A DNA stretch of 64,000 nucleotides from an uncultured cyanobacterium. Lineage in GTDB: Bacteria; Cyanobacteriota; Cyanobacteriia; PCC-6307; Cyanobiaceae. The translations under genes were made by a program, and so were the position numbers. The notes beneath the pieces are model-generated. The model did no database searches. It was given only the letters and a program-made list of their open reading frames with translations, and was not told the DNA's origin. Positions 6,514 through 23,800 of the stretch are shown here, piece by piece; position 1 is the first letter of the stretch; each line of letters opens with the position of its first letter. Location: the NCBI GenBank assembly GCA_903871775.1, contig CAIQIA010000004.1, forward strand, positions 1 to 64,000. Reading direction: 5' to 3'.

Positions 6514-7503
6514 TCAGGCCCCCGGCCGGCAGCGGCCCTGCTGACGGCGGAGGTTGAGGGCGATCATGGCGGGATCGAGTTGCTGCTCTGCCGCCCCCAG
6601 CTCAAACGCTGCCCGGGGCATGCCATACACCACACAGGTGGCCTCGCTCTGGACCATCGTGTGCCACCCGGCCTGCCGCAGTTTCAGCAACCCTGAGGCA
6701 CCATCTCGCCCCATCCCCGTGAGCACAACCGCCTGCCCCGGCGTCACCCCAGGCCGCAGCAAGCTCAAAAACAGCTGGTTGACCGACGGCCGGTACGGTT
6801 CATCGCGGGGTTCGACGACGTAACCCAGGCGGCCATCGGCCTTAAGCACCAAATGGTTGTTGCTGCAGGCAAGCTGAACGACGCCCCGGCGCACAGGGTC
6901 ACCCTCCTGCACCGCCTCCACCGGCAGAGGGATCTGGCTGTTGAGCCATTGGACCAGGCCTGGAGCGAATTGGGCATCGATGTGCTGGGCCACCAGCACC
7001 GCGGCGGCCAGGTCAAGGGGGAGGGGAGCCAGGCAGCTGACCAGGGCCGCGGGACCTCCGGTCGACGAGCCGATCGCAATCAACGGCGGCAGGGTTCTCG
7101 GCTGCTTCTCCGGCGTGTTCAGACGTTCGATCTGCCTGATCCGACGCAACAGGGGTTGCCCTGCAATCGCGGCTGGTTCCAGCAACGACGGTGTCTGCAC
7201 CGCATCGAGAGCTCCATGACCGAGGGCCTCGTAGATGAGCCCGTTGCGTGATTCGACGCTGCTGGTCACCAGCAGGATCGGACAGGGGCTGGCGGCCATG
7301 ATCCGCCGGGTCGCCTCAACGCCGCCGACTCCCGGCATCAACAGGTCCATCAGGATCAGGTCTGGCTGGTCCCGCCGCGCCATCTGCACCGCTTCGGCGC
7401 CATCACGGGCCTCCCAGGCGATCTCATGCCGCGGTTCCAACGCCAGCACCCTTCGCAACGCATGCAGCGCCAGGGTCGTGTCATTGACCAGGGCGATGCG
7501 CAT
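6514..7503 (-). CDS. cheB: Chemotaxis-type response regulator methylesterase CheB (WspF-like)
   Basis: CheB removes methyl groups from receptor glutamates and so resets adaptation. Residues 1-120 are a receiver domain with phospho-acceptor D53 in LILMDLLMPG. Residues about 140-325 are the methylesterase domain, with the serine of GSSTGGP (146-147), H174 in AQHI and D267 in TGMGRDGA forming the catalytic triad. The start lies 3 bases after the stop of the CheA-type kinase, so it is the last gene of the leftward arm. In Wsp systems the equivalent (WspF) is a negative regulator whose loss locks signalling on. Confidence 0.95.
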   Translation of the reverse strand: MRIALVNDTTLALHALRRVLALEPRHEIAWEARDGAEAVQMARRDQPDLILMDLLMPGVGGVEATRRIMAASPCPILLVTSSVESRNGLIYEALGHGALDAVQTPSLLEPAAIAGQPLLRRIRQIERLNTPEKQPRTLPPLIAIGSSTGGPAALVSCLAPLPLDLAAAVLVAQHIDAQFAPGLVQWLNSQIPLPVEAVQEGDPVRRGVVQLACSNNHLVLKADGRLGYVVEPRDEPYRPSVNQLFLSLLRPGVTPGQAVVLTGMGRDGASGLLKLRQAGWHTMVQSEATCVVYGMPRAAFELGAAEQQLDPAMIALNLRRQQGRCRPGA

Positions 7504-7506
7504 CGC

Positions 7507-9759
7507 TCACACGCAAGCTGGACCAATCAGATCATGAACGGCCTCCAGCAGCACCCGCCCGTCAAAGCCGGTCTTGCCAAGGTACCCATCAGCACCGGCC
7601 CGCAGACCTTCCAGCCGATCAGCCTCGCTATCGCGGCTCGAGAGAATGAGCACCGGCAGCGATCCAAGAGGTTCAGGCAGTTCCCGCAACCGTCGCACCA
7701 GCGCAAAGCCATCCAGCTTCGGCATCTCGACATCGCTGAGCACCAGGCTCACCCGCCGTCGCTGCAGCAGGGCCAGGGCCTCTTCGCCATCGGCGGCCTT
7801 CTCGACCCCGTAGCCCTGCCCCTCCAGGGTGCGACCCACCGATTCGCGCACCATGCGGCTGTCGTCAACCACCAGCACCCGCTGCGGTTCGGAAGCCACC
7901 ATCGCGGGCTCGGTGGTCGCTGGCGCAGACACGGGAGGCAGAGGCGCCACATCACCGATCTCGAGCCGCTCCTGCACCACCTGCAGCAGCACGCCGGCAT
8001 CGAGCACCAGAATCGGCGCACCGTCCCCCATCAACGCCGCCGAGGCAATGCAGGGGACCGTGCCCAATCGTGGATCGAGGGGGCGCACCACCAGATCCTG
8101 TTCGCCGAGAAAACGCTCAACCACCAGGCCGTAAGCCTTGCCCTGGTCACTGAGAACCATCACCGGCAACGGGTCGCTCAAGGTGGCCGGACAGGGCCGC
8201 CCGAGCAGCGGCTGCGCCTGGATCAGACCGATGGCACGGCCATCGAGCAGCAGGGTGGAGCGACCTTCGTGGCGATCAATGGCCGTCAACGGCGCCGCCA
8301 CAATCTGATCCAGCCGTGCCAGGGGCAGGGCGTAGGGTTCGCCGCCGATCTGCACCAGCAGCGTGCGCACCACCGAGAGGGTGAGCGGCAGCTGCAGGTG
8401 CAGGCTCAGCCCCGTGCCGGCCACCGACTGAAGCCGCAGGGAGCCGCCCACCTCGCGGGCCATGGTGTCCACAACATCGAGGCCAACGCCGCGACCTGAG
8501 AGTTCGCTCACCTGCACGGCGGTGGAGAAGCCCGGCCGCAGCAGCAGCGCCATCAGATCGTTCTCGCTGGGGTCCCGTTCAGCGCCATCGCCGACGGCGG
8601 TCAGCAGTCCCCGTTCCTGGGCCCTCTGGCGCACAGCCTCGAGGTTCACACCGGCTCCATCGTCCCGGATGGTGATACTCAGCATGCCGCCGCGGTGCAG
8701 CGCCTCGATCCGCAGCGTCCCCTGCTCGGGTTTGCCAGCCCTGCGGCGCTCTTCGGGGGTCTCCAGGCCGTGGTCGATGGCGTTGCGCACGGCATGGGTC
8801 ACCGGCGCCTCCAGGCGGCGCAGGATGTCGCGGTCGACAAGGGTGTTGCGACCCACGATCTCGAGGCGCACCCGCTTGCCGAGACTGGCTGCCAGGTCGC
8901 GCACCAGACGGGGCAGGGCGCTGAGGCCCTCGTGAAAGGGCCGCATGTTGGCATTGAGCACCTCGCCGTAGAGGCGGTGGGCAATCGTGTTCGAGCGACG
9001 GGTGAAGGCCTCCAGTTCTTCGATCTGTTGTTGCAGCAGCAGCTGGCACTGGCGCTCCTTTTCGCGGATCAGATCCAGAGGGGGGTCGTTGGCGCTGATC
9101 AGTTCGGTGACCTCCCGCTGGCGGCTGCGCAGCTGCTGCAGGCCATCGGCGAACGGTTGCAGCCAGCGGGCCGCCACCATCGACTCCCCCGCCAGGGCGG
9201 CGATGCGGTTGAGCTGCAGGGCGTCAAGCTTCACGGTGCGCTCGGCTGGAGGCACGCCGGCGGAGGCTCCCGGGGCAGCTCCGGAGGATGGCGGTCCTGC
9301 GATGGATCCCGGCAAGCCGCCGGCGCGAGGCGACGGGTTCTGCAGGCCCAGGGTGAGCGCCTGCAGTTCGCCCTCGAGAGCTGCCAAGGCCTCGGCCTCA
9401 CCCTGCAACCGCTCGGGAAAGGTCTCGCAAGGGCCGCTGTGGAACTGCTCCAGCTGATCGAAGGCTCGAAACAGCAGCGCCACGGCCTCGCCAGGGAGGG
9501 CCGCCCCATCGGCGGCCGTCGCCAGGGCCGCCAGCACCAGATCTTCGATGGCATGGGCCAGCCGTTCCAGAATCGTCAACCCCACCATCCGCGCCGCCCC
9601 TTTCACGGTGTGGGCCGCCCGCATCAGGCTGTCGCGGCTGCCGGAGCTGGCCGAATCAGCCTCCAAGTCTAGCAGGGCACCATTCAGCAGGCTGAGCTGG
9701 TCCCCCAGCTCCTCCACGAACAGGGCAAGGTTGCTGTTCTGCTCATCGGGGCCGCTCAT
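7507..9759 (-). CDS. cheA: Hybrid CheA-type histidine kinase with C-terminal receiver (WspE-like)
   Basis: 750 residues in the order Hpt (phospho-histidine H50 in AAHTVKGAARM), linker, dimerisation segment, HATPase (N box HAVRNAIDH near 322-330, then DDGAG), CheW-like domain (about 475-600) and a receiver domain (about 628-746, acceptor D676 in LSDVEMP). It takes receptor input through CheW and phosphorylates its own receiver and CheB. The CheA-REC fusion is the WspE layout. The start overlaps the stop of the CheW-type gene by four bases (ATGA). No separate CheY gene is present here. Confidence 0.95.
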   Translation of the reverse strand: MSGPDEQNSNLALFVEELGDQLSLLNGALLDLEADSASSGSRDSLMRAAHTVKGAARMVGLTILERLAHAIEDLVLAALATAADGAALPGEAVALLFRAFDQLEQFHSGPCETFPERLQGEAEALAALEGELQALTLGLQNPSPRAGGLPGSIAGPPSSGAAPGASAGVPPAERTVKLDALQLNRIAALAGESMVAARWLQPFADGLQQLRSRQREVTELISANDPPLDLIREKERQCQLLLQQQIEELEAFTRRSNTIAHRLYGEVLNANMRPFHEGLSALPRLVRDLAASLGKRVRLEIVGRNTLVDRDILRRLEAPVTHAVRNAIDHGLETPEERRRAGKPEQGTLRIEALHRGGMLSITIRDDGAGVNLEAVRQRAQERGLLTAVGDGAERDPSENDLMALLLRPGFSTAVQVSELSGRGVGLDVVDTMAREVGGSLRLQSVAGTGLSLHLQLPLTLSVVRTLLVQIGGEPYALPLARLDQIVAAPLTAIDRHEGRSTLLLDGRAIGLIQAQPLLGRPCPATLSDPLPVMVLSDQGKAYGLVVERFLGEQDLVVRPLDPRLGTVPCIASAALMGDGAPILVLDAGVLLQVVQERLEIGDVAPLPPVSAPATTEPAMVASEPQRVLVVDDSRMVRESVGRTLEGQGYGVEKAADGEEALALLQRRRVSLVLSDVEMPKLDGFALVRRLRELPEPLGSLPVLILSSRDSEADRLEGLRAGADGYLGKTGFDGRVLLEAVHDLIGPACV

Positions 9760-10445
9760 GATGCTTCCAGCTGGATGCGCAGGGTGCTCAGCAACCGCGG
9801 ACCGTCGATCAGGGCCACCTGACGCCCCTTCCAGCGGAACAGGCCATCGGTGAGGGCCTGGGCGGGGTTAAGCACCACCGGCGGCGGTTGCAGTTCCTCC
9901 GCCCTGCAGAGATGGATGCCGAGCACCTCATCGATCGCGATCACCCATTGCTCGTCGCCCGGAGCGGTCACCGCCATGCGGGCGTTGCCGTCACCCATCG
10001 GGCTTGTGGGGTCGCGCTCCGGCAGACCCAGCAAGCGGCGAAGACAGGCCGCCAGCAGAATCTCGCCGCGGATGTTGACCAGGCCGAGAAAGCAGCCGTT
10101 GCTGCGGCCCGGCACGCTGTGAATGCCAAACGGTGGGGTGACCTCCTGGAGCAGCTTCAGGGGCAGCGCCAGCAGCTCCTGGTCCACCCGAAACACCATC
10201 AGCGCCAGGGCCTGCTCACCACCGACCACCCGCTCGTCGCCCTCAGCAACGCCCGAGCGGTCGTTGCCGCCGCCGTCGGCCAGTACCGCTGTCCAGCTGG
10301 ACAGGTAGTCGGCAGGGGGCTGCCGCTCGAGCAGGCTGCGACCAGCCCGGGAATAGACGCTGCAATTGCGGCAATGAACAACAGTGGGCAGTTCAGGGCA
10401 GCTACCGTCGCCACTGACTCCGATGTGGTTCCAGCAGTCGTCCAT
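9756..10445 (-). CDS. CheW-type adaptor with cysteine-rich N-terminus (WspD-like)
   Basis: 229 residues. The C-terminal two thirds is a CheW domain (ALMVFRVDQELLALPLKLLQEV, NIRGEILLAACL). The N-terminus, DDCWNHIGVSGDGSCPEL then VHCRNCSVYS, is the cysteine-containing segment found in WspD-type adaptors rather than in classical CheW; its role is unknown, although four cysteines could bind a metal. It begins 8 bases after the receptor gene stops and overlaps the kinase start. It should couple the receptor to the CheA-type kinase. Confidence 0.88.
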   Translation of the reverse strand: MDDCWNHIGVSGDGSCPELPTVVHCRNCSVYSRAGRSLLERQPPADYLSSWTAVLADGGGNDRSGVAEGDERVVGGEQALALMVFRVDQELLALPLKLLQEVTPPFGIHSVPGRSNGCFLGLVNIRGEILLAACLRRLLGLPERDPTSPMGDGNARMAVTAPGDEQWVIAIDEVLGIHLCRAEELQPPPVVLNPAQALTDGLFRWKGRQVALIDGPRLLSTLRIQLEAS

Positions 10446-10453
10446 CAGGCCCC

Positions 10454-12130
10454 TCAGCCGGTGACCTGGAACTGGCCCAGCTCGCGCCGCAGCACAAGGG
10501 CCGAATCCTCGAGCTGCACCAGGCTCGTGTTGGTGTCAGCGATCGCCTCGGAGGTCTGCTGCGCCGACTCGCTGAGCTGCAGCATCGCCTCGCTGATCTG
10601 CTGGGCACCTTCCGACTGCTGCTGCACAGCCTCACCGACCTGCTGGAACTTCGGCCCCAGACCCTGCACCTGGGTGATCACCGCCTCCACTTGATCACTC
10701 ACCCGCACGACATCTTCCACAGAGCTGGCGACCGCTGCACTGAAGCGGTTCATTTCGAGCACGCCGCTGGTTACCGCCGCCTGCATGTCGCGCACCATCT
10801 GTTCGATCTCGAGGGTGGCCACGGCGGTCTGGTCGGCGAGTCGGCGGATCTCGCGGGCCACCACCGCGAAGCCGGCGCCATACTCACCGGCCTTTTCGGC
10901 TTCGATCGCGGCATTGAGCGAGAGAAGGTTGGTCTGATCAGCCACCTTGGTGATCGTGGAGACGACGCTGCCGATGCTGCTGGCCCGATCATTCATCGTG
11001 TCGAGTTTGGCCGAAATCTCGGCAGTCGATGCTGAAAGGCCCCGCATCATCGCCTCCATCCGGTTGAGGTCGTCCTGACTGCGGGACGCAGCCGTGGCGG
11101 TTTCGCCTGCCTGGCGGTCCACCTCGCCCATGGTCTGCACCAGCACGCGCGAAGTGGCGGCGATCTGCTGACTGGTGGCACTCACCTCATTGGTGCTGGC
11201 GACCTGTTCGGAGACCGTGGCCTCGAGCTGGCGTCCAGCGGCGGCGATCTGGGTGGCGGCGGTGTTGATCTGCACGCCCGACCGCTGGATCTCGCGCACC
11301 AACCGGGTGAGGTTGTCGCCCATGCTGTGGAAGGCGTTCTGCAGCTTGCCCAGTTCGTCGGCCTCTTCGGTTGGCGGCAGGTTCTCGCGCAGATCCCCCT
11401 CGGCGATGGCCTCGGCCACCTCGACGACTGTGGCGATGCGGGCACCCAGGGGCCGGGCGATCGTGCGGGTGAAGTAACCGGCCGCCGTGATGCCGATCGC
11501 CGGAGCCAGAACGATCATCACCAGTGACCAGAACTGGGCCTGGTTGATGCTGGCGGTCGCGTCTTGCTTGGCCTTCTCACCCGCCTGTTGGTTGTAGCGG
11601 ATGACCTGAAGAAGGGCGTCGGTGGCGTCCTGATAAGTCTGATTCTGTTGCTTGAGTTCGGCGCGCAGTCGTGCAGCAGCCTGGGGAGTGACGGCTCCAC
11701 CATTGGTGCCCATGACCGCGTTGATCTGGCGCATCAGCTCACGATGGCTGTCTTGCCACACCTGCCAGCGTTCACGCACGCGGCTGTAGAGGGCTTTTTC
11801 CTCAGCATCAGAATCGGTGGCTTCGTATTGATGCCGTCCCTCTTCGATCTGCTTCCAGGCGGCATCAATCCGCTGGAGTTCCACCTGACGGGCAGCAGGA
11901 GGCTCTTCCGGCTCGATCAGCAGCCGCTGGGCCGACTGGATCTGGGTCTGGCCTTCATTGATTTTCCAGAGTCCATCAACACTCGGCAGTCGATTGTCTG
12001 CAAGCTCCTCGATCCGTCCGCCGAGGCTGCGGGCGGTCGCCATCGCGAGGACGGCGATCAGCAGCGCCAACCCCCCCATGGCCAGGAAGGCATAGCGGAG
12101 GCGAGCCTCCATCGACTGGTGCTGGGCCAT
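10454..12130 (-). CDS. Methyl-accepting chemotaxis-type receptor (WspA-like)
   Basis: 558 residues with an N-terminal membrane helix ([17 protein letters not shown], about 14-30), a helical periplasmic sensor region to about 205, a second membrane helix ([19 protein letters not shown]), HAMP and a long cytoplasmic coiled coil. The signalling tip is [19 protein letters not shown]. The periplasmic part is all-helical, like the four-helix-bundle receptors of Wsp systems, and has no PAS or Cache motif. It is the first gene of the leftward arm, transcribed from the 12131-12473 intergenic region. The ligand or stimulus is unknown; Wsp receptors in Pseudomonas respond to surface contact. Confidence 0.93.
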
Positions 12131-12473
12131 GAGTGTGGACTGCGGGCGAGGGGGTGCTGGGGGGGGCGGGGGTGGTCACTGGACCGAAATCAGTGCACTG
12201 GAATAGGCCCAAACTGATCTGTGGGTGGGCGCAGAATGGAAACTGATTTATATAAAGACGCTCGATAGGGTTGTGGATTTTTATCACGTGCGGCATTATT
12301 CTCATGCTACAGAAAAATTAAGGCTTTACAAGCCCCCTGCCAGGCCAAACCCCAACGTGATGTCCGAGTTTTGTTACGTATGCGACCGTCCTGAGCGTTT
12401 CAGGGGTCTAAGGCTACGTCTGGAGTCGCTCGACACCTTGATCGGGACACGGCCCTGATCCACCCCGGCTCTG
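12131..12473. promoter_or_regulatory. Divergent promoter region between the two chemosensory arms
   Basis: This 343-base gap separates the receptor gene (leftward) from the CheW gene (rightward) and contains no credible gene. The middle, about 12240-12330, is markedly AT-rich for this genome and includes ATTTATATAAAGAC at about 12245-12258, a plausible promoter core. A short inverted repeat CCTGA-GCGT-TTCAGG lies at about 12391-12405. Both arms are most likely transcribed from here, but no specific start site can be assigned. Confidence 0.5.
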
Positions 12474-13037
12474 ATGCAACAGCTCCCGCCCCCTCCGCAG
12501 CCTTCGCCTTCACTGCCGCAGCCCACCCAGAGCGGGGGCATGGGCACCGGTGGAGACGGCGCCTGCCTGTTGCTGCTGCTTGGGGTTGGGGATCAACTCT
12601 TCGCCCTTGAGACCGCCAACGTGGTGGAGGTGATCCCACGGGTCCTGCTTCGCCCTGTGAGCGGGTCTCCCCCCCACCGGCCCGGGGTGTTCAACTTCCG
12701 CGGTCGCGTGGTTCCGGTTGTGGATGTGTCGCAGCTGATCGCCGGCCACCCCTGCGCCGAACATCTCAGCAGCCGGATCATCATGGTGCGTCATAGGTCT
12801 GGTGGCAGCGGCGAGCGAGACGGCCTGGTTGGTCTGCTCGCCGAACGCGTCACCGACACGGTGCTCAAATCTCTCAACAGCTTCCAGCCCGCCGATGGGG
12901 CGGCGCAGCTGGCACCGTTCCTGGGCGGTGTGGCCCTGGATGAGCGGGGGCTGATCCAGCTGCTGCATGCCGATACCCTGGCCCAGGTGGGCCTGGCCCA
13001 AACGTCAGAGGAGCCGGAGACGGATGACCGCGGCTGA
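12474..13037 (+). CDS. cheW: CheW-type adaptor protein (WspB-like)
   Basis: 187 residues: a proline- and glutamine-rich N-terminus of about 28 residues, then a CheW domain with LLLGVGDQLFALETANVVEVIP, GVFNFRGRVVPVVDVSQLI and IIMVRH. It should bridge receptor and kinase. The extra N-terminal stretch may be a linker or mean the true start is the internal ATG near residue 23. It is the first gene of the rightward arm and overlaps the following cheR by 14 bases. Its place before cheR reproduces the wspB-wspC order. Confidence 0.9.
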   Translation: MQQLPPPPQPSPSLPQPTQSGGMGTGGDGACLLLLLGVGDQLFALETANVVEVIPRVLLRPVSGSPPHRPGVFNFRGRVVPVVDVSQLIAGHPCAEHLSSRIIMVRHRSGGSGERDGLVGLLAERVTDTVLKSLNSFQPADGAAQLAPFLGGVALDERGLIQLLHADTLAQVGLAQTSEEPETDDRG

Positions 13038-14100
13038 GCTGGATCCCTTGCGCAGCTGGCTGCAGAGCACCACCGGTCTGGAGGCCGATTTGCTGGGCCG
13101 CCAGAGCCTGGAGCGAGCCGTCAGGAAGCGACTGGCGGACACCGACGGTCTGACGTCGGCTGACTATCAACGCCTGCTGATGCAGGATCCCGCCGAACAG
13201 CAGATGCTCATCGAAGCGCTGGTGGTGGGCGAGAGCTGGTTCCTGCGGGAGCCGCGTTCGTTCTCCCAGCTGGTGGACATGGCCCGCCGGCAGTCTCAGC
13301 GACCGCTGCGGCTGCTCAGCTGCGGCTGCGCCGGTGGCGAAGAACCCTATTCGCTGGTGATGGCCCTGCTGGAGGCCGGGCTGTCGCCGCAACAGCTGGA
13401 GGTTGAGGCCATCGACATCAGTGCAGTGGCGCTGGCCCGGGCGGCTGAGGGCTCCTACGGCAGCCATGCCCTGCGGGGAATGGAGCTCCGGCGGCTGCAG
13501 CGGTTCTTCGATCCCGACGGGCAGCGCTGGCGGCTGCGGCCCGAGTTCCGGGGCATGGTGCGCTTCCATCACGGCTCGCTGCAGCAGCGGCTGCAGGAGC
13601 TGCCGGGGGGCTGGCAGGCGGTCCTGTGCCGCAATGTGATGCTTTACATGAACGACGAGGCACGACAGGATCTGCTGAGGGTGATCGCCGGTCGACTCGC
13701 CCCGGATGGGTTGCTGCTGGTGGCAGCTGCTGAGTCGGCCCTGGTGCCATCGGCGATCTATCGCCGTCTTGACGGCGGACACCGGGCAGGCTTCATCCGT
13801 CGCAATGGCCCTCCAGAGCCTGCTCCCGCCACCATCAGCACGCCGCGGCAGCCCCGTCGCTCCGTGCCCAGACTGGCGCCACCCCTGGAGCCCGACACCC
13901 ACCTGATGGCTGCCCGTCAACTGAAACAGCTGGGCCAGCTGGAGGAGGCCCTGGTGGCGTTGCGCCGCTGCCTCTACCTCGATCCCCGCCATCGGGAGGC
14001 CCTGATCCTTCGCGCTGAACTGTCCAGCGCGCTGGGGCGCCACGAGGCAGCCGAGCAGATGCGGCGACGCCTGGAACGGATCAGCCGTCAGAACCCATGA
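13024..14100 (+). CDS. cheR: CheR-type MCP glutamate methyltransferase with TPR tail (WspC-like)
   Basis: CheR methylates receptor glutamates using SAM. ATG 13024 gives 358 residues. The catalytic domain has LLSCGCAGGEEPYSLVMALLE (SAM loop and the GEEPYS motif, about 98-118) and later LCRNVMLYM, where the usual motif is CRNVxIYF. The C-terminal 70 residues (QLKQLGQLEEALVALRRCLYLDPRHREAL) form TPR-like helices, the WspC layout. It overlaps the CheW gene at its start and the ion-channel gene by four bases at its end, so all three are probably co-translated. Confidence 0.94.
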   Translation: MTAAELDPLRSWLQSTTGLEADLLGRQSLERAVRKRLADTDGLTSADYQRLLMQDPAEQQMLIEALVVGESWFLREPRSFSQLVDMARRQSQRPLRLLSCGCAGGEEPYSLVMALLEAGLSPQQLEVEAIDISAVALARAAEGSYGSHALRGMELRRLQRFFDPDGQRWRLRPEFRGMVRFHHGSLQQRLQELPGGWQAVLCRNVMLYMNDEARQDLLRVIAGRLAPDGLLLVAAAESALVPSAIYRRLDGGHRAGFIRRNGPPEPAPATISTPRQPRRSVPRLAPPLEPDTHLMAARQLKQLGQLEEALVALRRCLYLDPRHREALILRAELSSALGRHEAAEQMRRRLERISRQNP

Positions 14101-15137
14101 GCCAACGGCGGTGGATGCTTCTGGGGCTGCTGGGGCTGCTGCTGGCCTTGCTGCTGGGTGGCACCCTCAGGCCGGCCCGGGGAGCCGGCGACGCCAGCGG
14201 GGGAGTGGCCACCTGCCGCATGGGCGTCTTCATCGAAGATCTGCGCGATTTCAGATTCGCCGAGAAGTCTCTGTTCGCCTCTCTGAGGGTCTGGAGCGTG
14301 TGCCCTTCGGACGGGCTCACACCATTGGCTGATCTTGAGATACGCAATGCCAACGAGATCAACATCGGCGAAGTGAAGACCCATTTAGAAACCAACCACT
14401 CGCGCTCATTCCCAGGCAAGTCGAAGTTGTACTGGTCTGAGGTCGGCATCACCGGGACATTCTATTACCCGTGGTCAGCCCAGAACTTCCCCTTTGATCG
14501 TCATCATCTCCGTTTTGAAATTGTTCCCCGTGGCGTCAGTCGAGCTGGCTTTGTGGTGACCCCTGACTATCAAAGCTCTGGCTACAACGCAAGGATCAGC
14601 TCGGGGGACTGGATCGCCTCCAACTTCATGCTTAACGAGGAGAGCCTCGAGCAGGGAAGCAGTTTTGGAAATCCATCGATGACCAGCGTTCACGGCGAAG
14701 GGGTCAGCACGATCACCGCTTCGATTGAGCTGCGCCGTGCACGCATCACCAGTTTTCTGAAGATGAGCGCTGGTGTTTATGCCGCTGTTGTAATCTCGGC
14801 GATGGCCTTTTTCATGGATCCCCGCGAACCAGATCTGGTAAGCGGTCGCACGGGACTGTGTGTGGGCTGCTTGTTCGCTGCCATTGTCAATATGCAACAG
14901 GCCGAGTCAACGCTTGGCATTTCGGAAGATGTCACCCTGACAGACCAGATCCATATCATTGCGATCCTTTACATCCTGATCTCGACAGTGCTTGCCATCG
15001 TCAGCTATCTGCGTTGCGAGCGAGACCAGGCCGACCGTGCCCGACATCTCGACCGGCACTATTACCTGCCGATCTTCGGCAGCACTTATCTGGTCACGAA
15101 TGGCGTGATCATCGCCTACGCCGTGCTGGTGGGGTGA
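14097..15137 (+). CDS. Prokaryotic pentameric ligand-gated ion channel homologue
   Basis: 346 residues with a signal peptide (LLGLLGLLLALLLGGT, A/G-rich end near 30), an extracellular beta-sandwich region of about 180 residues, and four C-terminal membrane helices at about 218-240, 250-272, 281-304 and 323-345. The motif NFPFDRHHLRFEI (130-142) matches the FPFD signature of the Cys-loop/pLGIC loop, without the flanking cysteines, as in bacterial channels such as GLIC. M2 (TGLCVGCLFAAIVNMQQAES) is in the expected place to line the pore. The gene overlaps cheR by ATGA, tying it to the chemosensory cluster. The ligand and ion selectivity cannot be read from the sequence. Confidence 0.82.
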   Translation: MSQRRWMLLGLLGLLLALLLGGTLRPARGAGDASGGVATCRMGVFIEDLRDFRFAEKSLFASLRVWSVCPSDGLTPLADLEIRNANEINIGEVKTHLETNHSRSFPGKSKLYWSEVGITGTFYYPWSAQNFPFDRHHLRFEIVPRGVSRAGFVVTPDYQSSGYNARISSGDWIASNFMLNEESLEQGSSFGNPSMTSVHGEGVSTITASIELRRARITSFLKMSAGVYAAVVISAMAFFMDPREPDLVSGRTGLCVGCLFAAIVNMQQAESTLGISEDVTLTDQIHIIAILYILISTVLAIVSYLRCERDQADRARHLDRHYYLPIFGSTYLVTNGVIIAYAVLVG

Positions 15138-15233
15138 CCCACTCCACGGGCCTGGGCAGCAGATCGGCAGCGCCGCCGATGTTGCCGCCTGCGCCGATCA
15201 GACCCATCGTTGGGGGTCGCATGCAACCGGCGG

Positions 15234-16904
15234 ATGTCCCCCTGGCCCGTGGCCGCTGTCCCCCTGGTGCTGGCCGTGCTCACGGCGCCCCCCCTCGGTC
15301 GGCACCTGGATGCCCTGATCAGCGACCGGCCGCAGCCGGCCTGGGACCGCTGGGTCGGTCCGCTCGAAGCGGCTCTGATGCGCTGGGTCGGTGATGCGGG
15401 CCGCCCGGCCGACTCGGCCATGGGCTACCTGCTGCCGTTGCTCGTGAGCAACGGCCTGTTCGGCCTCGTGGCGCTGGTGCTGCTGCTGCTGCAGCCCCCC
15501 TGGCTCAACCCCCTCGGCTTTGCAGGCCTGCGGCCTGACCTGGCCCTGCACACCACGGTCTCGTTTCTGACCAACACCGACCAGCAGCACCTGGTGCCCG
15601 AGACCAGCCTGGGCAACCTCGCCCAGCTGGGGGTGATCCAGTTCCTGATGTTCGTCTCGGCGGCAACGGGTCTCGCCGTGGGTTTCGCGGTGATCCGCGG
15701 CTTCTGCGGGCGGCCCCTGGGCAATCTGCACCGCGATCTGGTGCGGTCGCTGACGCGGCTGCTGATTCCGGGTGCGCTGCTGGTGGCCCTGGCCCTGCTG
15801 CTCTGCGGTGTGCCGATGACCCTGGCCCCGCCGCAGGTGATCACCACCCTGGAGGGGGCCCGCCAGACCCTGCCCGTGGGCCCCATCGCCCTGTTCGAGG
15901 CGATCAAGCAGCTGGGGGAGAACGGCGGTGGCTTCGTGGCGGCCAATGGGGCCCACCCCTACGAAAACCCGACGCTGCTCAGCAACCTGATCAGCACCTG
16001 GGCGATGCTGGCGATCCCCGTGGCCACCATCGACGCCTTCGGCCGCTGTCTCGGCAACCGCCGCCAGAGCAATCTGCTGCTGGTGCTGGTGCTGGCCCTG
16101 TTGCTGCTGGGGGGCGCCGTGGCGATGGTCGCCGAAGGCGCTGGCAATCCCGCCCTGAGCACCTGGCTCGATGGACCGAATCTGGAGGGCAAGGAGCTGC
16201 GCTTCGGTGCCCCGCTCACCGGCCTGTGGGCCGCCGTCACCACCGGCACGATGACCGGTGCCGTCAACGGCTCCCTGGACGCCGCGATGCCGGCGACGCT
16301 GGTCGTGGCGCTGTTCAACCTGTTCCTGCAGGTGGTGGTCGGTGGCCAGGGCACCGGTGTGGCCTACCTGCTGGTGTTCGTGCTGCTGGCGGTGTTTCTC
16401 ACGGGCCTGATGGTGGGCCGCACCCCCGAACTGCTGGGCCGCAAGGTCGAGAAGCCCCAGGTGGTGTGGGCCAGCCTGGTGCTGCTGATCCATCCGCTGT
16501 TCGTGCTGATCCCGGCGGCCCTCACCCTGGCCGGCGGCACCGCCCTGGCGGCCACCGGCAACCCGGGCCCCCATGGCATCAGCGAGGTGGTCTACGAGTA
16601 CGCCTCGGCGGCCGCCAACAACGGCAGCGGCCTGGCGGGTCTCGGCAACGGGTCCCCCTGGTGGAACCTGAGCACCACCGTCAGCCTGCTGGGGGGGCGC
16701 TACCTGCCGATCGCAGCCCTGCTGGCCCTGGCCGACGGCATGCGCCGAAAGCCGGCCCTGGCCCCGGGCCCCGGCACCCTGCGCACCGACACCACCCTGT
16801 TCACGCTGGTCACAGCCATGGTGCTGCTGATCCTCGGGGCCCTCACCTTCTTTCCGGTGCTGGCCCTCGGGCCCATCGCCGAGGGCCTGGCGACCGTCTC
16901 CTGA
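15234..16904 (+). CDS. kdpA: Potassium-transporting ATPase potassium-binding subunit KdpA
   Basis: KdpA is the channel-like subunit of the KdpFABC high-affinity potassium pump. The 556-residue product from ATG 15234 is very hydrophobic, with about ten membrane segments and the repeated selectivity-filter regions: TTVSFLTNTDQQHLVPE, QLGENGGGFVAANGAHPYENP, TTGTMTGAVNGS and YASAAANNGSGLAGL. A TTG start at 15210 would add eight residues. The gene begins 96 bases after the ion-channel gene and is followed by kdpB after 9 bases. Expression of kdp is usually induced by potassium limitation. Confidence 0.95.
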   Translation: MSPWPVAAVPLVLAVLTAPPLGRHLDALISDRPQPAWDRWVGPLEAALMRWVGDAGRPADSAMGYLLPLLVSNGLFGLVALVLLLLQPPWLNPLGFAGLRPDLALHTTVSFLTNTDQQHLVPETSLGNLAQLGVIQFLMFVSAATGLAVGFAVIRGFCGRPLGNLHRDLVRSLTRLLIPGALLVALALLLCGVPMTLAPPQVITTLEGARQTLPVGPIALFEAIKQLGENGGGFVAANGAHPYENPTLLSNLISTWAMLAIPVATIDAFGRCLGNRRQSNLLLVLVLALLLLGGAVAMVAEGAGNPALSTWLDGPNLEGKELRFGAPLTGLWAAVTTGTMTGAVNGSLDAAMPATLVVALFNLFLQVVVGGQGTGVAYLLVFVLLAVFLTGLMVGRTPELLGRKVEKPQVVWASLVLLIHPLFVLIPAALTLAGGTALAATGNPGPHGISEVVYEYASAAANNGSGLAGLGNGSPWWNLSTTVSLLGGRYLPIAALLALADGMRRKPALAPGPGTLRTDTTLFTLVTAMVLLILGALTFFPVLALGPIAEGLATVS

Positions 16905-16913
16905 AGCATCCCG

Positions 16914-19010
16914 ATGACCTCTTTTCCAAGGGTCCCGTTTCTGCGCATGCCCAGGGGGCCGCGGCACGAGCGACGCCACGTCGAACGCCCCCGCCATCAG
17001 GGGCTGTGGCGCCGGGCCCTGATCGATGCCGTGCGCAAGCTCGATCCGCGGCTGACGGTGACCAACCCGGTGATGTTCGTCACCTGGTGCGGCACCGCCC
17101 TCTGCCTGCTGCTGACCCTCAGCCCCGACCTGTTCGACGGCCCCGACGCCGGCCAGAGCCGCGGCTTCAACGGCCTCATCAGCCTCACCCTGCTGGCCAC
17201 CCTGCTGTTCGCGAACGTGGCCGAGGCCCTGGCCGAGGGGCGGGGCAAGGCCCAGGCCGATGCCCTGCGCCGCACCCAGGCCCGCACAGAAGCCCGGCGC
17301 CTGGCCGACGACGGCAGCATCGAACGGGTCGATTCGTCGGCCCTGCGCCGCGGCGACCGGGTGCAGGTGGAGGCCGGCGATGTGATCCCTGCCGATGGCG
17401 AGGTGATCGACGGGGTGGCCTCGGTGGATGAATCGGCCATCACGGGCGAATCGGCACCGGTGCTCAAAGAGGCGGGCTCGGATGTGGCCGGGTCGGTGAC
17501 CGGTGGCACGCGCATCCTCTCGGACCAGCTCACCCTGCGCATCACCGCCGATCCGGGGAAGGGCTTCATCGACCGGATGATCGCCCTCGTCGAAGGCGCC
17601 GAACGCACGAAAACCCCCAACGAGATCGCCCTGACGGTGCTGCTGGCGGTGCTGACCCAGGTGTTTCTGATCGCGGTCGCCACCCTGCGGCCCGTCGCCG
17701 GCTTCCTGGGGCAGGCGCCGTCGGTCGTGACCCTGATCGCCCTGCTCGTTGCCCTCATCCCCACCACGATCGGTGGGTTGCTGAGTGCCATCGGCATCGC
17801 CGGCATGGACCGGGTGGCCCAGTTCAATGTGATCGCCACCTCGGGGAGGGCGGTGGAGGCCTGCGGCGACGTCAACGTGCTGGTGCTCGACAAGACGGGC
17901 ACCATCACCCTCGGCAACCGCCTCGCCGAGGAGTTCCTGCCGGTGGGGGACCACAGCGTGATGGATCTGGCGATGGTGGCCCTGGCCGCCAGCTGCTTCG
18001 ACCAGACCCCGGAGGGCCGTTCGATCGTGCGGCTGGCCGAACGGCTCGGGGCGACGCTGGCCTTCGATCCATCCACCGCCCGCGGCATCGACTTCTCGGC
18101 GCGGACGCGGATGAGCGGCAGTGACACCCCCGAGGGGGTCGAGTACCGCAAGGGTGCCGTGGAGGCGATCAAGGGCTTCGTGCGCTCCCGCGGTGGTCAG
18201 GTGCCCGGGGCCCTCGACGACACCTTCGAGCAGGTGTCGAGCCTCGGCGGAACGCCACTGGCCGTCTGCCAGGGGAACGCGGTGCTGGGTGTCATCCACC
18301 TGAAGGACATCATCAAGCCGGGGATCCGTGAACGGTTCGAGCAGCTGCGCCGCATGGGCATTCGCACGGTGATGCTGACCGGCGACAACCCCATCACCGC
18401 CGGCGTGATCGCCCGCGAGGCCGGGGTTGATGACTTCATCGCCGAGGCCACACCCGAAGACAAGATCAGCGTGATTCAGCGCGAACAGGCCCTCGGCAAG
18501 CTGGTGGCCATGACGGGGGACGGCTCCAACGATGCGCCGGCCCTGGCCCAGGCCAACGTGGGGGTGGCCATGAATTCGGGCACCCAGGCCGCCAAGGAGG
18601 CCGCCAACATGGTCGACCTCGACAGCGATCCCACCAAACTCATCGACATCGTCACCATCGGCAAGCAGCTGCTCATCACCCGCGGTGCCCTCACGACCTT
18701 CTCGATCGCCAACGATGTCGCCAAGTACTTCGCGATCCTGCCCGCCCTGTTCGTCGAGGCGGGCCTCGGCCCGCTGAACGTGATGCAGCTGGCCTCGCCC
18801 CGGTCGGCGGTGCTGTCGGCGATGGTGTTCAACGCGCTGATCATCCCGGCGCTGGTGCCCCTGGCGCTGCGCGGGGTGCAGTTCCGGCCGCTGTCGGCGG
18901 AACAGCTGCTGCAGCGCAACCTGCTCATCTATGGCGTCGGTGGCCTCGTAGCCCCCTTTGTGGGCATCAAGCTCATCGACGTGGTCGTCAACACCCTGCA
19001 CCTGGTCTGA
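16914..19010 (+). CDS. kdpB: Potassium-transporting ATPase ATP-binding subunit KdpB
   Basis: KdpB is the P-type ATPase subunit that drives KdpA. In 698 residues one sees the actuator motif TGES (177-180), membrane segment [15 protein letters not shown] (280-294), phosphorylation site DKTGT with D326, nucleotide-domain residues, and hinge [10 protein letters not shown] then [15 protein letters not shown]. The first 45 residues are arginine- and histidine-rich and longer than usual. The start may lie slightly downstream. It is 9 bases from kdpA and 8 bases from the small kdpF-like gene. Confidence 0.97.
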
Positions 19011-19018
19011 GGTTCGCC

Positions 19019-19213
19019 ATGCCCATGCGTCTCCCCCCCCTGCTGCGCTTCTGGCTGCCCCTCCTGGCGGTGGTCACCATCCTCGGCCTGGTGCATGCCC
19101 TCGGCGGTGATCACCCCAGTGCCCAATCGATCGCCATGGCCCTGCTGCTCACGGGCACCATCGCCCTGGCGGGCTACCTGTTCGCCGTGATCGCCCAACC
19201 GGAGAGGTTCTGA
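19019..19213 (+). CDS. kdpF: KdpF-like small membrane subunit of the Kdp potassium pump
   Basis: 64 residues with two predicted membrane segments, FWLPLLAVVTILGLVHAL and AMALLLTGTIALAGYLFAVIA, ending in AVIAQPERF, the KdpF C-terminal signature. KdpF stabilises the KdpABC complex. The gene lies between kdpB and kdpC, sharing one base with the kdpC start. This is an unusual place compared with the enterobacterial kdpF-A-B-C order. The protein is also longer than the ~29-residue E. coli KdpF, which has a single helix; only the second half matches. Confidence 0.8.
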   Translation: MPMRLPPLLRFWLPLLAVVTILGLVHALGGDHPSAQSIAMALLLTGTIALAGYLFAVIAQPERF

Positions 19214-19767
19214 TGTCGTTCACCACCCTGGTGCTGCGGGGCCTGCGGCTCACCCTGGCCCTGTGGCTGCTCACCGTCGTGGTGATCACCCTGCCCCTGC
19301 TGGGCCTGGCCCGGGTGGTGGCCCCCGACAGTGCCACCGGCAGCCTTGTGCGCCGCAACGGCGTCGTGGTGGGGTCGCGGTTGCTGGGCCAGCCCTTCGC
19401 AGGGGATCGCTACCTGCAGGGGCGTCCTGCCGGCAACCCCAACCTGGGCCCGGCCAACCCGAAGCTGGCCATCCGGATCGCCGGGGCCGCCGACACCTGG
19501 CGGCGGGTCGGCATCACCAAGCCGGCGCCCGATCTGTTGTTCGTCTCAGGCTCGGGCGTCGATCCCCACATCAGCCTGGCGGCGGCGCGGCAGCAGCTGC
19601 CGCGGCTGGCGGCGACACGGCAACTGCCCCCCGAACGGCTGGAACGGCTGCTGCGGCAACACATCGACGGCCCGGGGCGCCTGCGGGCGATCGAGCCCCT
19701 GGTCAACGTGCTGGGTTTCAACCTGGCCCTCGATGATCTGAGCGACGGTGCGCCGCAGAGACCGTGA
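19213..19767 (+). CDS. kdpC: Potassium-transporting ATPase subunit KdpC
   Basis: KdpC is the single-span accessory subunit that helps ATP binding by KdpB. The 184 residues begin with one membrane helix (TLALWLLTVVVITLPLLGLARVV), then the family motifs SRLLGQPFAGDRYLQGRPA, VSGSGVDPHISLAAA and the C-terminal VNVLGFNLALD. It overlaps the kdpF-like gene by one base and the kdpD-like gene by four. Confidence 0.95.
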   Translation: MSFTTLVLRGLRLTLALWLLTVVVITLPLLGLARVVAPDSATGSLVRRNGVVVGSRLLGQPFAGDRYLQGRPAGNPNLGPANPKLAIRIAGAADTWRRVGITKPAPDLLFVSGSGVDPHISLAAARQQLPRLAATRQLPPERLERLLRQHIDGPGRLRAIEPLVNVLGFNLALDDLSDGAPQRP

Positions 19768-20882
19768 TCCGTTCCACCGCCCGCCGCGGACGGCACAAGG
19801 TGTTCATCGGCATGGCACCGGGGGTGGGCAAGACCTGTCGCATGCTTCAGGAGGCCCGCGAGGTGCTGAGGGAAGGCACCGACGTCGTGATCGGGCTGCT
19901 GGAAAGCCATGGCCGACCCGACACCGAACGGGAGGCGGACGGGTTCGAGCAGGTCCCCCGCAGACGGGTGGCGTACCAGGGGGTTGCCCTGGAGGAGATG
20001 GACGTGGCGGCGATCCTGGCCCGCCATCCGCAGCTGGTGCTGATCGACGAGCTCGCGCACACCAACGTGCCGGGCAGCGAACGGGAGAAACGCTGGCAAG
20101 ACGTGGAGATGCTGCTGCTGTCGGGCCTCGATGTGTATTCGACCCTCAACATTCAGCACCTCGAAAGCCTCAACGACCTGGTGGCCGAACTGACCGGGGT
20201 GGTGGTGCGGGAACGGATTCCCAACCGCGTGCTCGAACAGGCCGATGAGGTGGTGCTGGTGGATGTCACCCCCGAAACCCTGCAGGAGCGGCTGCGGGAG
20301 GGCAAGGTCTACGCCCCCGAAAAGGTGGCCCAGGCCCTGGCCCATTTCTTCCAGCGCCGGCACCTGGTGGCCCTGCGGGAACTGTCGTTGCGGGAGGTGG
20401 CCGACCGGGTCGAGAACGACGTACGCGACACCGTCACGCCCCTGCGCGAGCGGGTGATGGTCTGCCTGGGCCATGCCGGCACCAGCCTGCGGCTGCTGCG
20501 TCGAGCCGCCCGGCTGGCGGCCACGATGGATGCGCCTCTGCTCGTGCTCACGGTGCAGGATCCGGGCCGGTTCCTCAGCCGTGGCGAAGCCCTGCTGCAG
20601 GAACGCTGCCAGCAGCTGTGCGCCGACGTGGGGGGCACGTTCCTGCGGGAAGAGAGCAGCGAGGTGCTGGCCACCATCGCCCGGGTGGCCCTGGAGCGGC
20701 GCATCACCCAGATCGTTCTCGGCCAGACCCGCCGCTCGCGCCTCAGGGCCCTCCTCCGCCGGCCCCTCTCGGAACGGCTGCAGCATCAGCTGCGGGGCCA
20801 CAGCATCGATCTGCACCTGATCTCCGACCCCCCCGACAACGGGGCGACCGGAGCCGATCCGGACGGGGTGGGGTCAGCCTGA
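19764..20882 (+). CDS. kdpD: KdpD-like protein, N-terminal sensor half only (no kinase)
   Basis: 372 residues covering the KdpD N-terminal domain, with Walker A GMAPGVGKT (16-24), Walker B-like LVLIDELAHTNVPGS, and STLNIQHLESLNDLV, followed by a universal-stress-like domain (RERVMVCLGHAGTSLRLLRRAARLAA ... QIVLGQTRRSR, broken by variation). There is no membrane segment, no histidine-kinase domain and no kdpE. Short KdpD proteins of this kind are known in other cyanobacteria. The GTG start overlaps the kdpC stop. The gene ends 2 bases from the stop of the convergent giant gene. Confidence 0.92.
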   Translation: MIRSTARRGRHKVFIGMAPGVGKTCRMLQEAREVLREGTDVVIGLLESHGRPDTEREADGFEQVPRRRVAYQGVALEEMDVAAILARHPQLVLIDELAHTNVPGSEREKRWQDVEMLLLSGLDVYSTLNIQHLESLNDLVAELTGVVVRERIPNRVLEQADEVVLVDVTPETLQERLREGKVYAPEKVAQALAHFFQRRHLVALRELSLREVADRVENDVRDTVTPLRERVMVCLGHAGTSLRLLRRAARLAATMDAPLLVLTVQDPGRFLSRGEALLQERCQQLCADVGGTFLREESSEVLATIARVALERRITQIVLGQTRRSRLRALLRRPLSERLQHQLRGHSIDLHLISDPPDNGATGADPDGVGSA

Positions 20883-20884
20883 GC

Positions 20885-23800
20885 TCAGATCGTCAGCAAC
20901 CGCGACGGCGCCGTGGCGATTCCCTCCAGCAGGGCGATGAGGTCGTCGCCGTTGTCGTAGAGACCGTTGTTGTTGCTGTCGAGGTGCAGACCCAGGCCGG
21001 TCACCGCAGCGCCCTCAGGACCGACCACCGTGCGCTGGGCCGCGACCAGAGGCAGCCGGCCTGACACCACCAGATCATCGCTGGCGGGGCGATACCCGCG
21101 CACCAGCGTGTAACCGCTGTCGCCATCGCCGGCGGGGGGCACGGCCGCAGGGCTGGTGAGCAGCAGGGTGCTGGCCCCGCTGAAGGCAGCGGCCTCGAGC
21201 ACATCGATGCAGCCGCCATCACCGGGAAGGCCGGTGACCAGATCCACCACCGAGAGCAACCGGTTGCCCAGGGGGGACGCCTGCAACCGGTCAGGGCCGG
21301 GGCCGCCACTTTCCACGAGCGTGAACGGGTCGCGGGCATTGGCCCCGGGGAACGCAGCGACGATGCGGGCCCGCAGAGCCTCGATCGGCGACACTGGGGC
21401 GCCGATGGCGCCGTCGCCGTTGGCATCCATGCCGAACGCCTCCTCGAGATCAGCAGCGGCCGGTGACCCCAAGGCCACAGGGGCCGTGCCGCCGGTGGGT
21501 CTCCAGCGCTGATCACAGGTCCAGCTGGCCAGCAGACCGCTGGCATCGTGGCGCCAGAGCAGGCGGTTCTCGCCCGCCGTGGCGGAGGCTGCCAGCAGAG
21601 TCCAGCCCGGCAGGCGGGGATCGGTGGCCAGCAGAGGGTTGTCGCCCCAGCGCAACGGCAGCGGCTCCTGGCCCCCAACCGCCACCGCCAGCTGCTGGCT
21701 GATGCCATGGCGCAGCAGGGTCAACCCTGAGGCTGTCGCGCCCGCAATCGCGATCCAGGGGGAACCGATGGCGCCGTCGCCGTTGGCATCGATCCCGAAA
21801 CGGCTCTCGAGGGCCAGGGCCGTAGCGCTGTCGCCGGCGACCGGGGCGATACCCGAGATGGGAGTCCAGAGCCCATCCAGGCTCCAGGTGGTCAGCTGAC
21901 CGCTGGGCCCATGGCGCCACAGCAGGGTGTTGCCGTCGTCAAGGCTGGCAGCAGCCAGGGCTGACCAGCCGGGCAGCCGCACGTCGGTGGTCCGGAGCGG
22001 CTGATCCCCCCAGCGCAGGGGAATCGGCGCTGCAGCGGTGTCGGCAACGGCCAGGGCGCCGCTGCCGCTCTGCCGCAGAAGCTGCACACCATGGACCGCG
22101 GCGATCAACGACCAGGGCGAGCCGATGCTGCCGTCGCCGTTGGCATCGAGGGCGAACAGGGTCTCCAGGGCCTGGGCCTCGGCCGAATCGCCGGCCACCG
22201 GGTCGGTGCCGTTGATGGCAGCAAGGTCGCTGTTCAAGGTCCAGGTCGCCAGCTGACCGCTGGCACCATGGCGCCAGAGCAGCTGCACCGTGTCCTGAAC
22301 CGCAGCGGCGGCGAGGGCGGTCCAGCCCGGCAGGCGCGGGTCCTGCTGGCGGAGCTGGCTGCCGTTCCAGGTCAGCTCCTGCAGAAGGCGCACATCATTG
22401 GGCACCAGGCTCACCGTCGTGAGCCAGAGGGCCCCGTCGCTGGAGGAGCGCAGGAGCTCGAGGGCACCGACCACCGCCACGGTGGCGCGGCGACCCGTCG
22501 GCACACCGATGCAGCCATCACCGTTGGCATCGCTGCTGAACGCCCGCTCCAGGGCCTGGGCTGCACTGCTCTGGAGGGCCACGGGCACCGAGCCGCCGAT
22601 GGCGGCCCAGCGCTCATCAAAAGACCAGCTGGCAAGCAGGCCGGTGCCGCGATGGCGCCACAACAGGCTGTTGACACCACCCACCAGGGCGGCCGCCACG
22701 GCGTGCCAGCCCGGCAGGCGTGGATCGTCGGCCTGCAGCAGCGTTCCCCCCCAGCTGAGGGCCACGGGCGGGTCACCATCCACGCTGGCCGCCAGGGCGC
22801 CACTGGCGTTGTGGCGCAACAGGGTCACCGGGCCTGCCACAGCCATGGGCACCCAGGCGCTGCCGATGCTGCCATCGCCGTTGGCATCGCACTGGAACAG
22901 GGCCTCAAGCGAGAGGGCCTTGGCCGAATCACCGGCCACCACCGGGCTGCCCTCGATGGCGGCCCAGCGATCATCAAAGCTCCAGGTGGTGAGGGAGCCG
23001 CTGGGGCCATGGCGCCACAGCAGGGTGTTGATGTTGTCGATGACAGCGGCAGCCAGGGCCGTCCAGCCGGGCAGCCGCGGATCGGGGGCTCCCAGGGGCT
23101 CACCGCCCCAGAGGAGGGTGGCGCTGGTGCCATCGGCACGGCGCACCAGCCACCGGCCCGTGTCGGCACGACGCAGCAGCTCGACGCTGTCGGTGCGGGC
23201 CACCACAACGGTGGTGTCGCCGAGCAGGCGATCACCGTTGAGGTCAACGCCGAAACGGCGTTCCAGCTCCCGGGCCTCGGGGCCGTCGGCCGCCAGCGCA
23301 GGAGTCCCCGCCACGGCGGCACCATCGGCAGCGAAGGTCCAGGTGGTGACCAGTGCCGCCGTTCTGTGAAGCCAGAGCAGGGTCGCGCCGCCACCGCTGT
23401 CGGTCATCGCCAGGGCGCTCCAGCCGGGCAGCCGTGGATCGTCGACCCGCAAGGGCTCCCCGCCCCAGGTGAGGGCAACCTGGATGTCCCCGGCAGCGCG
23501 CGCCAGCCGGCCGGAGCCCCCCTGTCGCAGCAGGCTGGTGCCCCCCACCCGGGCCAGCACGGCAGCGGGGTTGCCGATGCGGCCGTCGTGGTCAAGGTCG
23601 CGCTGGAACGTCGACTCAAGCTGACGGATTCCCACAGACGGGGCGGCGACGGTGCCCCGATCGCCGACCTGGCGGCCGCTCTCATCCAGCACCCAGACCA
23701 GCAGCCGGTCGCTGGCCCCCTCGCGCCAGAGCAGTTGCAGCATCCCGTCGCTGCGGGCTGCCGCCAGCAGCTGCCAGGCCCCGAAGGTGTCGGCCGTGAC

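Follow-up and report, generated by a model that had tools for sequence, protein, structure and literature searches.

The channel gene and its product

Why does a gene resembling those of the pentameric ligand-gated ion channels (pLGICs) overlap the end of cheR in a cyanobacterium? In the window, the 64,000-nucleotide stretch of DNA analysed here, an open reading frame at 14097..15137 of the plus strand starts with ATG and encodes 346 residues. The first-pass annotation, made from the sequence alone, took the product for a GLIC-type channel coupled to cheR and supposed that a chemosensory circuit uses ion flux as an input or output. Two matters had to be settled: whether the product is such a channel, and whether it belongs to the pathway encoded beside it.

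The reading frame was found as described. Other genomes carry homologues with 47–69% identity, and dN/dS, where computable, is 0.07–0.27; the frame is thus not a chance ORF, and by these ratios the gene is under purifying selection. The ORF map shows that the channel ATG overlaps the TGA stop of cheR (ORF 12967..14100) as ATGA at 14097..14100 on the plus strand. Scans for promoters and terminators were uninformative.

Single-sequence searches proved too weak for this protein. A Pfam search gave no match, a PDB search reached GLIC at an E value of 0.39 only, and the match to NCBIfam LGIC_1 was below the cut-off. A profile of 18 homologues was used, and its hmmsearch against the PDB found GLIC at an E value of about 1e-18 over positions 48–343, the best match being a chimera (E 6.5e-21).

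The AlphaFold model, with a mean pLDDT of 80.4 and a pTM of 0.68, displays a beta-sandwich at residues 39–214 and four C-terminal helices at 218–239, 250–273, 281–308 and 312–345. Foldseek aligned it with GLIC 6zgk at an E value of 4.6e-16 and a TM score of 0.71, and VIA-align at Z 22.3 with an rmsd of 2.8 over 282 residues, the structurally aligned positions being about 14% identical. The top structural score, Z 23.0, belongs to a GLIC-GABA-A chimera, and GABA-A and GluCl chains score like GLIC. The profile and the predicted fold, with both the beta-sandwich and the four-helix bundle, identify the product of 14097..15137 as a pLGIC. The signal-peptide-like N-terminus (residues 2–27 are hydrophobic), the beta-rich extracellular part and the four helices noticed at first pass all hold.

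So does the FPFD motif at residues 131–134 (14487..14498, plus strand), the pro-loop counterpart of YPFD in GLIC. Among the 18 homologues P132 is invariant and D134 nearly so. In the homologue and GLIC alignment P132, D134 and R214 fall on GLIC P120, D122 and the pre-M1 R192. The residues were mapped onto a GLIC reference sequence that agrees with the stretches in the PDB matches and with the published numbering of E35, D122, R192, E222 and H235. No cysteines flank FPFD, and the product lacks the disulfide by which the eukaryotic Cys-loop subgroup is defined.

Pore, sensor residues and cysteine pair

The M2 pore helix was placed by the profile and a MAFFT alignment to GLIC at residues 249–270 (SGRTGLCVGCLFAAIVNMQQAE; 14841..14906, plus strand). 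It carries S-2', G-1', R0', G2', G6', F9', V13', Q16' and E19'. R0', G6' and F9' are invariant across the che-linked members, and M2 is among the best-conserved parts of the channel.

The residues for gating and selectivity differ from those of GLIC. GLIC has its key proton sensor in E35 (PMC5760087). In the window channel this residue is replaced by K57, and across the clade the position holds K or R, with one Q. GLIC D32 corresponds to F and H235 to A, neither GLIC residue being kept in the clade. Since E35 is absent in the clade, proton gating of the GLIC kind appears unlikely. The acidic -2' ring of GLIC, E222, corresponds to S249 in the window channel and to S, G or A across the clade. 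The lack of this ring counts against GLIC-like cation selectivity, and anion or non-selective permeation would be our guess.

Two cysteines also distinguish the clade from GLIC. C40 and C69, at the ends of strands 1 and 2 (codons within 14214..14303, plus strand), are invariant in 16 of 16 members in the clade alignment, and are absent from the 30% identical paralogues, from more distant homologues and from GLIC. They may form a clade-specific extracellular disulfide.

The chemosensory module

Seven genes form a divergent module that ends with the channel; cheB-cheA-cheW-mcp read leftward and cheW-cheR-channel rightward. On the minus strand, cheB (6514..7503; Pfam CheB 4.6e-49, NCBIfam CheB above the cut-off) encodes a WspF-like methylesterase with a receiver domain. 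Gene cheA (7507..9759) encodes a WspE-like hybrid kinase with Hpt, HATPase, CheW and C-terminal receiver domains by Pfam. Next by rising coordinate come the first cheW adaptor gene (9756..10445; Pfam CheW 2.6e-22) and a gene for a WspA-like chemoreceptor (10454..12130), in which Pfam finds a 4HB sensor, HAMP and MCP signalling domains, with hydrophobic stretches at residues 9–40 and 197–222. This is the only MCP of the genome, with a single PF00015 match genome-wide. The arms are separated by an intergenic region at 12131..12473 in the ORF map, a layout repeated at six other loci (L029-L034).

On the plus strand, the second cheW (12474..13037; Pfam CheW 7.9e-21) precedes a WspC-like cheR with C-terminal TPR (13024..14100; Pfam CheR 9e-32, TPR_8 8e-6). 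The cheR ORF is listed from 12967, and its true start is probably 13024 (MTAAEL...), within cheW. With that start, cheW, cheR and the channel gene all overlap.

In the window, receiver domains occur on CheA and CheB only, and there is no receiver-GGDEF protein of the WspR kind. The genome, about 96% complete, holds 14 receiver domains, one of them on a stand-alone protein; its receiver ORFs beyond the window are of 289 aa or fewer, bar one of 606 aa (REC + Trans_reg_C). A WspR relocated elsewhere was rejected, as no ORF of receiver-GGDEF size was found. Two pilT-family genes of the genome score above the cut-off and a third matches more weakly. No flagella are known from cyanobacteria.

Downstream of the module, 15210-20882 carries kdpA, kdpB, kdpC and a gene for a KdpD-like K+ sensor, which are not conserved at the other che-linked loci. 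Membership of the channel in a Kdp potassium operon was rejected on that account. Further on, 20885-25576 of the minus strand encodes a protein of 1563 residues with seven W_rich_C (tryptophan-rich Synechocystis C-terminal) repeats, probably a surface or exported protein.

Linkage within the family

The close channel clade occurs in 8 of 300 genomes of the family, that of the window included. Of the seven other carriers, six have the gene whole; in G222 only a fragment of 43 residues is seen, where a contig ends, and cheR is cut off at the end of another contig. An MCP orthologue (E < 1e-60) is present in exactly these 8 of the 300 genomes, in each of them as the sole MCP. A second sample of the family added three genomes with the channel directly behind cheR; two family genomes of another sample have other MCPs. 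The sampled genomes are related, so that these counts are not independent, and a gene that seems missing from a draft genome may fall in a gap.

The ATGA overlap was found at all readable junctions (10/10, in ten family genomes). Flanking genes vary among genera, and the conserved block is thereby bounded by cheB on one side and the channel on the other. A channel paralogue of 30% identity in the window's own genome (L002, G000:C26:151096-151992) falls in another clade and does not lie near che genes; nor do the 30% paralogues of other genomes.

Linkage in other families

Among 390 genomes of the class, members of the channel clade occur in four other families. G321 and G399 (family f23) carry two tandem channel genes after cheB, G595 (f42) has two tandem channel genes before cheW, and G306 (f8) has one channel gene near cheW. 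In G405 and G487 (f15) the clade members (L081:9290-10453 and L082:9464-10492) have no che genes within about 10 kb; these two neighbourhoods are similar to each other. The linkage between channel and che genes is thus retained across four cyanobacterial families, and it outlived changes of gene order, as the channel takes other positions in the f8, f23 and f42 clusters. The neighbourhood proposed at first pass is therefore conserved in related genomes, and its coupling to cheR stands in part: the window's family keeps the overlap at every junction read, but the varied positions elsewhere make the chemosensory cluster as a whole the partner, and not cheR.

The tandem pairs within chemosensory clusters lie at L077:8964-11137, L078:8823-10992 and L080:7511-9596. 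Such pairs suggest heteromeric channels. In the L080 pair the middle part is nearly identical, with a look of gene conversion.

Clade membership has a support of 97/98 in the channel tree. The MCP tree puts all channel-bearing clusters in one clade (98/94), with a single channel-less exception, G305; this is a close cluster in a genome where no channel was detected, and its contig ends inside cheA. In the CheA tree one branch splits all channel-bearing from channel-less clusters. The simplest reading of these trees would be one old association of channel and cluster, followed by spread and perhaps a loss.

A plasmid-borne origin of the clade was rejected, as plasmids hold only distant homologues (21–27%). 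One of the plasmids, pAB510b of Azospirillum sp. B510, displays a second, independent neighbourhood of pLGIC and chemosensory genes (L149:7776-13824). There 19 bp separate AZL_RS21535, a distant pLGIC of about 24% identity, from the cheW downstream of it; next come a 4HB-MCP gene and the gene of an MscS-type channel that carries a cyclic-nucleotide domain. Unlike in the window, no cheA, cheB or cheR is annotated within the stretch read. The pLGIC-cheW-MCP cluster was not seen at the four other Azospirillum loci read.

Possible role of the channel

The reading that we prefer, although we give it only an even chance, makes the pLGIC a dedicated part of a Wsp/ACF-like pathway, in which it would add a further sensor, on the periplasmic side, to the one 4HB chemoreceptor. 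In its favour are the operon position with the ATGA junction, the shared occurrence of channel and MCP, the retained linkage in other families, the MCP and CheA trees, purifying selection, the unlinked 30% paralogue and the Azospirillum neighbourhood. To judge from the model, the channel most likely acts as a periplasmic input. About 180 residues are placed in the periplasm, and the cytoplasmic parts are only those around 240–249 and 309–311. Input is preferred because nearly all of the soluble mass is periplasmic, the cytoplasmic loops are tiny and there is no receiver domain. In such a pathway the large periplasmic domain would bind a small solute or ion and the homopentameric pore would open. 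Ion flux or local depolarisation, or else a direct membrane contact between channel and chemoreceptor, would alter the activity of the MCP-CheW-CheA array, which CheR and CheB would adapt. For the output, CheA and CheB would use their receiver domains, joined by a response regulator encoded elsewhere; type IV pili are a plausible target, guessed from gene content.

The pathway type does not need the channel, as is evident from channel-less versions of the cluster in several families. Those versions, the f15 members away from che genes and the G305 cluster all count against the preferred reading. Channel-less clusters also bear on the opposite direction of signalling, in which CheA activity would gate or regulate the channel and so change ion flux or membrane potential, the channel being the output where sister clusters keep an effector. 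An extra receiver-domain protein (histidine kinase, adenylate/guanylate cyclase, SpoIIE phosphatase or hybrid kinase) lies nearby in 7 of 12 related channel-less clusters, whereas none of the 11 channel-bearing loci has a receiver-domain protein other than CheA and CheB. This contrast has a p of 0.005 by locus but of 0.22 at one locus per family, with some loci cut by contig ends, and is on that account a lead only. The missing response regulator keeps the output reading in play. We nevertheless consider it rather unlikely, given a channel almost without a cytoplasmic part and without a receiver domain. Still a little more doubtful is a chemosensory phosphorelay with an electrical arm, in which the pLGIC would replace the response-regulator output, in some species probably as a heteromer of two tandem subunits, and CheA activity and ion flux would control each other. 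Examples of the effectors in sister clusters are the histidine kinase at L121:13223-14554, the cyclase at L125:3063-4574 and the SpoIIE phosphatase at L128:7431-8678.

Three further explanations separate the channel from ion signalling or from the pathway itself. The loss of the GLIC acidic ring (E222 to S or G), the glycines at 2' and 6' with phenylalanine at 9', and the clade-specific C40/C69 pair would all suit a ligand-binding co-receptor that conducts weakly or not at all and signals to the chemoreceptor by contact, its pore unused. The strong conservation of M2, however, suggests a pore in use, and we think such a co-receptor improbable. No greater credit is due to mere co-expression, by which the channel would be a valve for ion or osmotic homeostasis, needed under the same condition and without a link to signalling. 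In accord with this, the kdpA, kdpB, kdpC and KdpD-like genes, the last for a non-kinase K+ sensor, share the strand of the channel and begin 72 bp downstream of it, yet at other loci the kdp neighbours are not kept while the che genes are. Spread of the whole module as one block, with a channel on board that has no function in it, would fit the patchy distribution (8/300) and the flanks that differ among genera. Such hitch-hiking is nonetheless very improbable, as the linkage persists through rearrangements of gene order in other families, the dN/dS values are low and the channel marks the exact end of the conserved block.

Comparison with known systems

Bacterial pLGICs are much-studied structural models of neurotransmitter receptors, and at the time of the survey by Jaiteh et al. 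(2016) the in vivo role of no microbial pLGIC had been studied (PMC4795631). The linkage to chemosensory genes in several cyanobacteria offers a concrete, testable lead on what these relatives of neurotransmitter receptors do in bacteria. Tasneem et al. (2004) proposed bacterial pLGICs as chemotaxis receptors from the indirect evidence of Cache and periplasmic-binding neighbours (PMC549065). Their channels are fused to or lie beside sensor domains, whereas the present one is linked to cheA, cheW, cheR, cheB and mcp. Open-access full texts yielded no report that links a pLGIC with core che genes. With its full chemosensory core, in organisms that have a single chemoreceptor, the conserved operon would permit a clean genetic test of the 2004 proposal, and it is a natural setting in which to seek ligand, ion and signalling partner together.

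By its Pfam domains the module resembles the Wsp system of pseudomonads (WspA-F and WspR), with a 4HB-MCP, two CheW, a CheR-TPR, a CheA with receiver and a CheB. Unlike Wsp, the cluster has a pLGIC and no WspR, and it is thus not a Wsp system. CheR-TPR marks the ACF clusters, which mostly hold multidomain response regulators (PMC3447774). The channel-bearing loci differ from these pathways as well, for none of the 11 has such a regulator. A chemotactic role of bacterial pLGICs was already predicted; the new aspect is a Wsp/ACF-like module with a pLGIC built in.
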